NCBI GenBank assembly: GCA_902516285.1
Contig: CABXXT010000001.1
Span: 1-35,654, forward strand
DNA from: an uncultured SAR86 cluster bacterium
GTDB lineage: Bacteria > Pseudomonadota > Gammaproteobacteria > Magnimaribacterales > D2472
DNA length: 35,654 nt
Direction of reading: 5' to 3'
The notes under the pieces were generated by a model. That model worked only from the letters and a program-made list of their open reading frames with translations, was not told the DNA's origin and did not search any database. The translations under genes and the position numbers were made by a program. This document shows positions 9,518 to 13,910 of this stretch, one piece after another (the first letter of the stretch is position 1; each line of letters opens with the position of its first letter).

Positions 9518-10477
9518 TTATTGTATCAACCCATTTAAATCATATTTTTTTAAAAAGTTCCAAATATAGCTTGCAGAATCAATATCATCATTTTTATTTT
9601 GATATCTACTGCTTGGCCAGTCATGTCCATAGTTTTCCAATAATACTGATGAAACTGAGACTTGATTATTACAATTGAAATGTAAATTTATAGTACCGGA
9701 CGATCCATCAAGATTATTATCTTGAATATTTGATGTAGTAAAAGACGAACACTGATTAAAATTTGCCCAGAAATCAATAGATTCAGCTACAGATTTTATA
9801 AATTGATTTCCACTTGGATCAAGAATACTGTCATTAGCTCCATGAATATGGACCACTGATTTAGATATTTCTGGTCTGCATGAATCAAATGTATCTGTGC
9901 TCATTGTTCCTCCTACTGGAGCAACAGCTGCAATCCTATTGCTTAACTTACAAGCCAGGTCATATGACATTATTGCACCCACTGAAAAACCTGAAGAATA
10001 TATTCTATCAAGGTTCACATTGTAATTTGTATCTACCCAATCAATAACTTTATTAATAAAAAAAAGATCATCAGAAATATTATTATTATTGTTAAATATC
10101 CAACCAGTTGAGCTTTTGTCTTGAAAAAATTGACCTTGTGGATAAATGACATAAAATTTTTCAGAATCAGCAATTTCATTAAATCCAGTATAAGAAAAAT
10201 TTCCAAGAGCAGTGCCACCTCCTCCATGAAAGCTAAATAATAATGGAACCGCAGACAATGATGAGATATTTGAAGGTTTATAAAGATATATTTCTCTAAT
10301 TAAAGAGTTTTGGGTTATCTGGCAATAGTCGATATTTGATGAGTATGCTGAACAATTAAAGTTAACAAAATTACTGTCAGACACAGCTGATTCTTGAGTA
10401 TTATCTAGATCAGAATAAGAGCCTCCCGAGCCTGAACAGGAAATTAAAAAAAAGATAATAAAAATCAAAAATTTCAT
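9518..10477 (-). CDS. Lipoprotein esterase, PHB-depolymerase/feruloyl-esterase-like alpha/beta hydrolase
   Basis: Start placed at the ATG at 10477, which overlaps the upstream stop as ATGA and opens a lipoprotein signal (MKFLIFIIFFLISC, lipobox LISC, lipidated Cys14). An upstream in-frame start at 10534 would bury this signal. The mature 319-residue protein matches LpqC/PHB depolymerase esterases: FSFHGGGG oxyanion region (83-88), GW after the PQG motif, nucleophile Ser165 in GFSVG, Asp216 in HGANDSIL and His in NYGHDWPSS. It should hydrolyse esters, such as polyhydroxyalkanoate oligomers or acetyl/feruloyl groups on polysaccharides, at the envelope surface. The substrate is not determined. 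It is co-translated with the membrane hydrolase upstream. Confidence 0.85.
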   Translation of the reverse strand: MKFLIFIIFFLISCSGSGGSYSDLDNTQESAVSDSNFVNFNCSAYSSNIDYCQITQNSLIREIYLYKPSNISSLSAVPLLFSFHGGGGTALGNFSYTGFNEIADSEKFYVIYPQGQFFQDKSSTGWIFNNNNNISDDLFFINKVIDWVDTNYNVNLDRIYSSGFSVGAIMSYDLACKLSNRIAAVAPVGGTMSTDTFDSCRPEISKSVVHIHGANDSILDPSGNQFIKSVAESIDFWANFNQCSSFTTSNIQDNNLDGSSGTINLHFNCNNQVSVSSVLLENYGHDWPSSRYQNKNDDIDSASYIWNFLKKYDLNGLIQ

Positions 10478-12321
10478 TCTATTGGTAGATATATGACAGT
10501 ATTTGTTGAGAGAATCATAATAAAAATTAAGCATGTTATTAGTGGTCCAAGATAAACACGGCCACTTATTTGAAAAAAAATTCTATTAAAATATGGGAGA
10601 ATAAACATCATTGGAACTATTCCAAAAAGAAGATTCACACTTAGCCAATTCGTTGTCCAGAAAACTGTTCCTGTTAGTCCATAGGTTACATATTGAATAA
10701 CAATTATCAACATCAGGCCAAGTGAATTTGCAAATCCACCAATTAATCTAGATTTCCATTCATCCTGATCTTCAAAACGCATGGATCCATTTATTCGAAG
10801 AGAATTTGAAAAAAAGAAAATAAAAAATAAAGGAAAGTACATAGCAAGAATAATAAGCAACTCAGGTTGAAAAACTCTAACACCCATAAACCAAAATCTA
10901 TAGTCAATATGGAATAAAAAATATAAAGAAAAAAGAATTATGTAATAAATAGAAAAGACTGTAATTCCTAATAGAAATGTCTTCGTAAGATCAGTTTTAT
11001 TAATTGCAAGGCCCCACGAATCTGGAGAGACCCCGTGATGCCTTCCAAAAAAATAATAAGAAGCAAAGAAAATTAATATGCCTACTAATCCATTGAAAGC
11101 AGCCCATAACATGACAGAGTTATTCATTCTTTGAGGAAAAAACCAGGTTAATTCTCTATTTGTTGCATCAACAAAAAATATTTTTGCAATATCAACCATA
11201 GGAATAAATGAAATGCATGCAATGGATGCGCTTATTAAAAATATGGTCCAAAAAATTAACTTGCTCTTTGTATTTTGTTTTGGAAGAGCTGCAGGTATTG
11301 GTTTAACAATTGATTTAAAAAAGTTAATTTCTAAAAGTGCTTTTGTTAAAGGTATAAGCATTATTAATGAAACTATCATATTTAATAAAGTAAAGAATTC
11401 TTTAAACTGCCAAATTTGATTATTTGGTTTAAGTGGCTTTGGGAATCCTAAAACATTACTAAAGTAACTGATTTGATTTGCTGTAGCTTCTCGATTGTAT
11501 GGTTGGAATGGATGAAGAAGTTCTTCATTGAATATTACTCGAGCTGTTCTTTTATCAATTTCACCATAATATTTTCCTAATTCAACTTTAGTTATTTGCG
11601 AATCATCTGATAAAGCGCTATTAACTGTTCTTAAAGATTCAGGTGCAATTCTCATATTTGCTGAGTCCCATCCTTTTAAATCATTTCTAAATGCGCCTTC
11701 ATCATATAATGCATAACTCACACCGACATTTGACTGAACATGTTTAAGTATGTCATCCCGAAGTGTCAAAACATATCCCGAAACAAATACTGAATTAAGC
11801 TTACTTTTTATATTTTGCTCTTTAGCTTGTCTTCCAAAATAACTAGCTCCTCGTATTGCAGCATTACCTCCCATTGAGTGTCCAGTAGATGCAATTTTAT
11901 TTATATCAACGTAAGGAATATTTCCTGCGTGGGCGAAATCAACCAATGCAAACATTCCATATCCTTGAGTGGTTGCTGCCAATCTACTTGTTGAAGATGA
12001 GGACATCCCTTGAGCATAAGGATCAATCAACGCAACAACATACCCTCTTCTTGAAAGCTCAATTGCAATATTGGATAAAGCTTCTTTAGATCTTTGAAAT
12101 CCAGGCACAACTACTATAAAAGGAGCTTTATTATCTTCAGTGGCAGATTTTGGTTTGTATAGATCATATACCAAAGTCTGTCCTTCAGGAGTTTTCAATT
12201 CTTGAAGTATGATTTTGGTGTTTCCAAGATCAGTTTGGATCAGTGATCCCAAAAAACTAGATATCAATAAAGTTAATAGGCAAACTAAAAGAGATTTATT
12301 ATTTTTTAAGTAATACAACAT
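10474..12321 (-). CDS. Alpha/beta hydrolase with multi-pass membrane C-terminal domain
   Basis: A 615-residue two-part protein. After an N-terminal hydrophobic segment (residues 10-28) comes an alpha/beta-hydrolase domain of dienelactone-hydrolase type: LYKPKSA, FIVVVPGFQRS, and the nucleophile Ser149 in GHSMGG. From about residue 310 to the end there are about eight hydrophobic segments, ending ILSTNTVIYLPIE. The catalytic part probably lies on the periplasmic side if the first helix acts as a signal anchor; this is inference. The function of the membrane part is unknown. The stop overlaps the start of the lipoprotein esterase by four bases, so the two hydrolases form one translation unit. 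No Shine-Dalgarno is visible before the ATG. Confidence 0.8.
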   Translation of the reverse strand: MLYYLKNNKSLLVCLLTLLISSFLGSLIQTDLGNTKIILQELKTPEGQTLVYDLYKPKSATEDNKAPFIVVVPGFQRSKEALSNIAIELSRRGYVVALIDPYAQGMSSSSTSRLAATTQGYGMFALVDFAHAGNIPYVDINKIASTGHSMGGNAAIRGASYFGRQAKEQNIKSKLNSVFVSGYVLTLRDDILKHVQSNVGVSYALYDEGAFRNDLKGWDSANMRIAPESLRTVNSALSDDSQITKVELGKYYGEIDKRTARVIFNEELLHPFQPYNREATANQISYFSNVLGFPKPLKPNNQIWQFKEFFTLLNMIVSLIMLIPLTKALLEINFFKSIVKPIPAALPKQNTKSKLIFWTIFLISASIACISFIPMVDIAKIFFVDATNRELTWFFPQRMNNSVMLWAAFNGLVGILIFFASYYFFGRHHGVSPDSWGLAINKTDLTKTFLLGITVFSIYYIILFSLYFLFHIDYRFWFMGVRVFQPELLIILAMYFPLFFIFFFSNSLRINGSMRFEDQDEWKSRLIGGFANSLGLMLIIVIQYVTYGLTGTVFWTTNWLSVNLLFGIVPMMFILPYFNRIFFQISGRVYLGPLITCLIFIMILSTNTVIYLPIE

Positions 12322-12470: not shown

Positions 12471-13211
12471 TTACTCTTTTAATGCAAAAGCCATATATGT
12501 AGTTGAACGACCACATGATGTATTTTTTCTAATCACATCCATATGTTCTGAATTTCTAGAAGTAGACCACCAAATATCTGAATTTTTTCCACTTGCTTCC
12601 TCATTTGGTGCAACTGAAGATAGATAATAATCAGTATCATCTTCTCGATCATAACCGCTGTTTGGTATTATATATCGGTAGCCAAATTCAGCGCCTGCCT
12701 CAAAAGCTTCTAATGACATTTGTCTTCTCGCTTGACGCATTTCGCCTCTATTAAACCCAGATTTATAATTACATGGCCAATATTTTACAATTCTTCTACC
12801 TTCTGGAAGTTCATCAAATGATGATGGTCCAACCCTTTGAAAAGCTGAAAAATTCACATTGCATTCCATTGGAAGTTGCTCATTATTACCTGCAGCCATA
12901 ATTAATGAGAACATTTTATCTTTATATGCTCCCATCTCTTCTCTGCTGTTAGCATGCTCTACAAAGAAAAAGTCATGATCAGGCTCATTAGCGAGCATTG
13001 GAAAAAGAACTCCAACGTTTACATCATTCTCAAATGAATTTGCCAATTCGACATATTCGCCAATGTATGGTCGAGCGTCTGAAAAGGTCTTACCCTCTTT
13101 TAAATTACAGAATGAATACTGTGCATAAACACTTGTGTATCCCTCTATGTCTGGTTCCTGGGCAAAAACCGAAATACTTAATACAAGTATTGTAGAAAAA
13201 ATATATTTCAT
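12471..13211 (-). CDS. Secreted protein with two repeated domains, family unknown
   Basis: A 246-residue protein with a signal peptide (MKYIFSTILVLSISVFA, cleavage before QEP) and a clear Shine-Dalgarno (AGGAGAT). I do not recognise the family. The mature part appears to be two copies of one domain, about residues 28-127 and 140-243. Each copy opens with an aromatic residue then CN (C35-N36; C147-N148) and a lysine/glycine stretch. Each continues with a helix, a hydrophobic strand ending near Pro, an acidic D-x-D patch and a helix of the type S-x-E-x-M, and closes with a second Cys (C117; C233) and a final strand (NFSAFQRV; TYMAFALKE). The alternating strand-helix order is reminiscent of dimeric alpha-beta barrels, but that is a guess. 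The two cysteines per copy could form a disulfide after export. It is monocistronic with its own terminator. Confidence 0.8.
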   Translation of the reverse strand: MKYIFSTILVLSISVFAQEPDIEGYTSVYAQYSFCNLKEGKTFSDARPYIGEYVELANSFENDVNVGVLFPMLANEPDHDFFFVEHANSREEMGAYKDKMFSLIMAAGNNEQLPMECNVNFSAFQRVGPSSFDELPEGRRIVKYWPCNYKSGFNRGEMRQARRQMSLEAFEAGAEFGYRYIIPNSGYDREDDTDYYLSSVAPNEEASGKNSDIWWSTSRNSEHMDVIRKNTSCGRSTTYMAFALKE

Positions 13212-13307: not shown

Positions 13308-13910
13308 TTATGGAACAAGCCAAGACGTCTTGTAATCATCTTGCCAGTCATGAATTGATCTTCGATGTCCAGAACTTTTTAAATAAAGAAACTCTAATGA
13401 GTAAAAAGAAAATATCAACACTGCAAAGTTTTTATATCCCTCTTCCACATTGTGATCTTTGATGTCATGAGTTTCAGGACTATCAATTGGATTTGTCGAG
13501 CCATCTTTTACTGAATAACATTTCTTAGATCTTGCAGTAGAGCCATTCCATGCATTAAGAGTTTGGCTATCATCAATATGAACTTTAATATTCCCTTGAA
13601 GTTTAATCTGAACTTTAAGACCAGGATCGTAGCCAATCACAGTTGCAGTATTATTTTTTTGAAAAGTATCAATTTTTGCAGCTCTATTATCAGTGTGAAA
13701 TCTCATAATTTTTTTCTTCAAATCAAATTCTCTCAAAACCATTACCCTTGAAACAATTTTATCTCCATCGATTGATGAAACGACTGGAGTGTGAAATTGA
13801 TTTTTTGAATTATTTACTGCGTCAATGAGTATAAGATTCGATATATCTATGGTTTGCTTGAGACTATCAAAGTTTTTAGGGATATCTAAATTTACTTTAC
13901 TAGATTCCAT
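13308..13910 (-). CDS. Pyridoxamine 5'-phosphate oxidase family protein
   Basis: A 200-residue flavin split-barrel protein. The block SRVMVLREFD, then MRFHTDNRAAKIDTFQKNN and KVQIKLQGNIKV, matches the FMN-binding core of the PNPOx family, and the C-terminal GHRRSIHDW resembles the substrate-binding E/G-x-R-x-H-D of PdxH. It is too different from PdxH in its middle and C-terminal parts to be called that enzyme safely. It may be an FMN-dependent oxidase or oxidoreductase of unknown substrate. It overlaps the end of cysS by 19 bases; the GAGGG seven bases before its ATG lies inside cysS. It is the last gene of the folE-maf-cysS operon. Confidence 0.8.
   Translation of the reverse strand: MESSKVNLDIPKNFDSLKQTIDISNLILIDAVNNSKNQFHTPVVSSIDGDKIVSRVMVLREFDLKKKIMRFHTDNRAAKIDTFQKNNTATVIGYDPGLKVQIKLQGNIKVHIDDSQTLNAWNGSTARSKKCYSVKDGSTNPIDSPETHDIKDHNVEEGYKNFAVLIFSFYSLEFLYLKSSGHRRSIHDWQDDYKTSWLVP

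Follow-up and report, generated by a model that had tools for sequence, protein, structure and literature searches.

Organization of the locus

The window, by which we mean the whole 35,654-nucleotide stretch of DNA that was analysed, comes from an uncultured SAR86 cluster bacterium whose genome comprises ~1.08 Mb in 30 contigs. The gene considered here occupies positions 12474..13211 of the minus strand, with its stop codon at 12471-12473, and encodes a protein of 246 residues. Homology search establishes that the open reading frame is real: homologs are found at up to 57% identity, apart from one identical fragment, a 120-residue sequence on a SAR86 cluster bacterium contig that matches residues 1-120 at 100%. 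Judged by eye, residues ~1-17 (13161..13211, minus strand) form a signal peptide cleaved between VFA and Q, with a Lys near the start, a hydrophobic core, and a small residue preceding the cut; the N-termini of the aligned relatives resemble that of the window protein. The initial annotation of the product as a secreted protein agrees with these features.

The same annotation gave the gene a terminator of its own, and an intrinsic terminator-like site is indeed found at its 3' end, where a 12-pair stem spanning 12456 to 12430 on the minus strand is accompanied by a T run; the scan recovered one such site against 0.3 expected. The description of the gene as monocistronic is not supported: a PNPOx-like gene (13308-13910, also on the minus strand) begins the upstream side at a distance of 96 bp, and the scan places no terminator between the two. 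Promoter-like sites are at chance level, with 6 found and 5.3 expected.

Downstream on the minus strand are two further genes of the hydrolase type. The nearer (10474..12321) encodes an alpha/beta-hydrolase-like domain fused to what appears by eye to be a multi-pass membrane part; a homolog occupies the same place in locus L005, and all of its profile matches, PETase-like and dienelactone hydrolase-like ones among them, fall below the cut-offs. The other (9518..10534) encodes an alpha/beta-hydrolase-type esterase that matches Abhydrolase_2 just above the cut-off and Esterase_PHB below it. The esterase has a G-x-S-x-G motif at residue 182 and, read from an internal start, an N-terminus that by eye resembles a lipoprotein signal. 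A tRNA-Arg on the plus strand lies among these minus-strand neighbours.

Internal duplication

Residues 28-127 and 140-243 had been proposed to be copies of one domain, in a duplication so faint that it could easily be missed. Self-alignment of the window protein confirms the faintness: its halves score 31 against each other, a value equalled or beaten in 249 of 2000 shuffles, and because so many shuffles score as well, the duplication is undemonstrable from this protein alone and relatives are needed. This result would suit a single non-repeating domain whose halves are alike by chance, as would the outcome of the same half-to-half test on 35 SAR86 rows taken singly, 12 of which had 0 of 500 shuffles reaching their score while most others were non-significant.

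Comparisons that draw on relatives contradict a chance likeness and put the duplication well beyond it. The halves of L036, from a genome outside the order, score 71, a value that none of 2000 shuffles equals (highest 58), and profiles of the N-terminal and C-terminal halves of the family align with each other in hhalign with a score of 51.3, where 40 column-shuffled controls reach at most 17.3. A one-domain model (A8), built from 10 domain rows of five other proteins and excluding both the window protein and its closest relative, matches the window protein at two separate places. The match to residues 27-122 (E 4.3e-10) corresponds to copy 1, residues ~28-127 (12831..13130, minus strand), and that to residues 141-241 (E 1.2e-9) to copy 2, residues ~140-243 (12483..12794, minus strand). 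Each of the four family members in the host genome is likewise matched twice by A8, to which one of the four, L003, contributed rows. Relatives with one domain also occur (see below). We take these comparisons to show, at the level of sequence, that the window protein is a tandem duplication of one ~105-residue domain, and give the single-domain alternative a vanishingly small probability.

Conserved cysteines and motifs

The only cysteines of the window protein are C35 (codon 13107..13109) and C117 (12861..12863) in copy 1 and C147 (12771..12773) and C233 (12513..12515) in copy 2, all read from the minus strand. The Cys pair initially annotated in each domain is therefore present, and the reported spacings of 82 and 86 are exact. 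Both Cys of copy 2 are invariant in alignment A1 (27/27 rows each), which retains 27 of 39 aligned rows after exclusion of near-identical and truncated rows; the fragments in L004 and L006, which do not differ from the window, had been set aside beforehand. At the position of C35, Cys is found in 10 of the 27 A1 rows; for C117, a count of Cys was made over N-terminal domains.

This count covered 171 domains in 97 unique proteins, from 144, and scored the second Cys anywhere 60-105 residues past the column of the first. Both Cys are present in 39 of 74 N-terminal domains, neither in 35, and just one in none, numbers that overstate the evidence to the extent that the sequences are related. The C-terminal domains have both in 71 of 74 cases, the remaining three being open reading frames cut by the locus end. 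The 23 single-domain entries, which include open reading frames whose other domain fell below threshold, divide into 18 with both Cys, two with neither, two with the second only, and one, at a contig end, with the first only. The two with the second only, L102 and L111, are distant one-domain relatives and are exceptions to the both-or-none pattern. Because N-terminal domains carry both Cys or none, a disulfide within each domain is likely. The window protein falls in the part of the family with both Cys pairs, and the pattern strongly suggests that each of its domains is held by a disulfide that joins residues near the end of the first strand and the start of the last.

The remaining annotated motifs fared unevenly. 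A D-x-D patch is found in both copies (D78-H-D80 and D192-T-D194). An S-x-E-x-M helix, also assigned to both, occurs only once, as S89-R-E-E-M93; the supposed second occurrence, S221-E-H-M, is situated elsewhere in the domain, nine residues before C233, and when the halves are aligned SREEM stands opposite NEEAS. The aromatic-x-CN opening fits copy 2 (W145-P-C147-N); in copy 1 the aromatic F34 directly adjoins C35. Over the 171 domains the best-conserved positions are Gly, Pro, Asp, and Cys, and these look structural. No catalytic residues were identified, and no conserved catalytic set was found in both copies; at no column is a His found in more than 10 of the 27 A1 rows.

Predicted fold

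A structure model built from the single sequence had a mean pLDDT of 42.5 and a pTM of 0.42. In this model copy 1 is arranged as strand-helix-strand-strand-helix-strand, and copy 2 is poorly modelled. A second model, of copy 1 with copy 2 as the sole other aligned row, had a mean pLDDT of 42.5 and was set aside. The first 13 matches of the first model in Foldseek (E up to 0.001, best 3.5e-4) are coproheme decarboxylase chains, superimposed with TM-scores near 0.3 and rmsd values of 11-13; chlorite dismutase-like, SP1, and NIPSNAP chains follow lower in the list. A second look with VIA at model residues 6-113 (protein residues 23-130) returned numerous proteins of the dimeric alpha-beta barrel type (Z 7.4-8.8), a range in which the tool warns that best values of 7-8 are typical for models without a clear match. 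It also ranked aIF2-alpha, a designed protein, ribosomal S6, and an amidohydrolase at Z 7.5-8.7, the non-barrel matches being other ferredoxin-like folds and unrelated chains. A fold search of BFVD gave no match at E ≤0.001.

Profile comparison with two barrel families gave no significant similarity. Against ABM (PF03992), hhalign yielded P 0.09-0.56, and two of the three scores narrowly exceeded the highest from 40 shuffled controls; against Dabb (PF07876) it yielded P 0.08-0.53, and one of three did so; as a positive control, the ABM and Dabb profiles find each other at 7e-5. Pfam searches produced no match to ABM or Dabb among 27 members or 10 domains, and none to NIPSNAP (PF07978) or EthD (PF07110) at E up to 1 among the 27 members. 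The initial annotation had singled out dimeric alpha-beta barrels for a fold search and structure prediction as the check. The prediction favours a ferredoxin-like domain and, with barrel proteins listed, is compatible with that suggestion, against a mean pLDDT of 42.5, unrelated chains of similar Z, and non-significant comparisons with the ABM and Dabb profiles. The model suggests, at low confidence, that each domain adopts a ferredoxin-like beta-alpha-beta-beta-alpha-beta fold and that the two copies form a fused alpha-beta barrel.

Among known systems, the dimeric alpha-beta barrel proteins (ABM, Dabb, EthD, and NIPSNAP) are structural neighbours of the low-confidence model and resemble the window protein in predicted order of strands and helices and in domain size. 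The window protein differs from them in its signal peptide, its Cys pair per domain, and its tandem fusion. Chlorite dismutases and coproheme decarboxylases (PF06778) have two ferredoxin-like domains in one chain, and in chlorite dismutase and HemQ the proximal heme His is in the C-terminal domain. The window protein shares the two-domain chain predicted for it with these enzymes, which are also its first Foldseek matches, and its one-domain relatives weakly match TA0507 by profile (E 1.2). A heme-binding protein of this kind nevertheless seems very improbable: the family, unlike PF06778 proteins, has no conserved His (10 of 27 rows at most for a column), none of the 27 members matches Chlor_dismutase in Pfam, and the window protein has a signal peptide and Cys pairs.

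Family and distribution

With the window protein as query, 67 of the 107 genomes searched in its own taxonomic family gave a match, and profile A1 matched at least 165 of 199 genomes of the order, with up to 7 matches per genome among the matches listed. Across the class, A1 matched 4 of 369 genomes, of which only G273 lies outside the order. The one-domain model matched 51 of 81 genomes in the family to which G273 belongs and, phylum-wide, 2 of 299, namely the host genome and G879. The host genome has four two-domain members, one of them lipoprotein-like. The features that mark the family, all present in the window protein, are two A8 domains, the Cys pair of the C-terminal domain, and either a lipobox or a signal peptide, the latter judged by eye.

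The one-domain secreted relatives, of ~125-135 residues including the signal, come mostly from a second family of the same class. An alignment of 16 of them (A9), with signal peptides recognized by eye, is homologous to the two-domain family by profile (hhalign 7.3e-14). They differ from the window protein in having a single domain and resemble it in the Cys pair, which most of them carry.

The initial annotation assigned the protein to no known family, and no fitting Pfam or NCBIfam family was found. The best matches were E 0.008 (Pfam) and 0.03 (NCBIfam) for the 27 A1 members and E 0.011 and 0.008, respectively, for the 16 A9 members, all to unrelated families and each in one or two members. 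In the PDB, the window protein, A1, A7, A8, and A9 found no convincing match by sequence (best E 0.066). No relative was confirmed in the viral contigs scanned, and a one-domain relative as query found no match in the plasmids searched. Among the titles and abstract openings of the literature retrieved, no paper on the family was recognized. The window protein thus belongs to an unnamed family, probably a novel form within a fold class that is already known.

Linkage to a secreted esterase

The esterase encoded near the window gene has homologs at 76 listed places (E up to 1.9e-43, weaker ones dropped) from 62 of 107 genomes searched, and these were compared with 107 listed places of the family. 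At least 41 of the 76 listed esterases, in 40 genomes and with that of the window among them, lie within 2 kb of a family member, where ~0.4 would be expected from uniform placement. Of these listed near pairs, which span six genus labels (g1, g2, g3, g4, g5, and g9), 39 are on the same strand and 36 have the esterase upstream; the other 35 listed esterases are without a listed family member within 2 kb. The window and its closest relative, G054, instead have the esterase downstream, separated from the family member by the hydrolase gene; G008 has it downstream with no such separation, and two g5 genomes carry it on the opposite strand. As the genomes are related, one inherited ancestral arrangement may explain many of these cases. 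The loci of the second lineage, with flanks of up to ~1.5 kb on each side, yielded no homolog of the window esterase.

A 142-residue secreted protein with no convincing Pfam match is encoded between the esterase and the two-domain gene at L033:1063-1488 and L183:8337-8762, and similar open reading frames of the same length occur in L034, L049, L064, and L068. Profile A1 matched this neighbour in L033, L034, L049, L064, and L068, and it was dropped as a candidate family member; in L033 the match covers residues 1-51 only, the signal peptide and first-strand region.

Proposed role

The explanation that we favour, tentatively, is that the window protein is a fused barrel with disulfides that serves the nearby esterase in the periplasm, either by binding a hydrophobic or ester-derived compound or by converting it. 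The fused chain would pack as one pseudo-dimeric alpha-beta barrel and would replace the homodimer that the one-domain relatives would form. Acting in the periplasm, the barrel interior may bind, or transform without a cofactor, a hydrophobic or ester-derived small molecule that the secreted esterase encoded nearby would produce or consume, and the several paralogs per genome could serve different ligands. A study of SAR86 makes the case that its cells break down complex lipids in the periplasm (PMC11582366), which fits the proposed role without testing it.

Two other roles were weighed against ligand handling for the esterase. The protein could itself be a secreted enzyme, a cofactor-free cyclase, isomerase, or oxygenase with a fused barrel, for which the esterase is a mere neighbour; the VIA list includes a polyketide cyclase, a hydroxynitrile lyase, and ABM proteins, and genes for an FAD monooxygenase-like protein, a GMC oxidoreductase, and a putative cyclase are found within several kb of paralogs. 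We regard this as rather doubtful, given that no set of conserved catalytic residues was found in both copies and that the top conserved positions look structural. It is unlikely, to a slightly greater degree, that the protein has no small ligand and is instead a structural or scaffold protein in the periplasm or outer membrane, or one part of a larger assembly, for instance a TonB-linked receptor system. Some relatives are lipoprotein-like, in L181 a paralog has a TonB-dependent receptor gene (PF00593) at a distance of 3.5 kb, and genes that by eye look receptor-like are found at 5.1 kb in L183 and at 2.9 kb in L184. By contrast, no receptor gene was recognized by eye among the open reading frames within 5 kb of the window gene, nor was one recognized in L182, and the linkage that was counted is to the esterase.

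The family is notable for its breadth in the order and for its link to a secreted esterase. The genomes searched in the order are small (listed at ~0.7-1.8 Mb, and in many cases incomplete) and yet keep several copies. A broader reading, to which we give little credence at present, is that SAR86, together with a second lineage in its class, carries an expanded, unnamed family of exported, disulfide-stapled fused barrels, which in SAR86 would be paired with secreted esterases and, in the periplasm, would trap hydrophobic ester products or transform them. The excerpts of the literature that were searched contain no description of such a nutrient-handling module. The domain, its Cys signature, and the linked esterase provide a concrete handle on the processing of imported material, and make the function testable.

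Several other genes were seen at the loci of the family. Secreted proteins of ~230 residues are encoded at L181:18398-19099, L182:6413-7117, L183:6526-7230, and L184:9617-10306; by eye they consist of two repeated alpha-beta units without Cys pairs, the two that were tested have no Pfam match, and in three of the four stretches they are near TonB-dependent receptor-like genes. A DUF1330 protein (PF07045) is encoded at L182:13484-13768, directly after the malate synthase gene, and L183 has a similar 95-residue open reading frame in the equivalent position. Beside the family member in L035 are genes for a secreted DUF4440/SnoaL-like protein (L035:2252-2716) and for another secreted protein of ~230 residues (L035:2729-3421).
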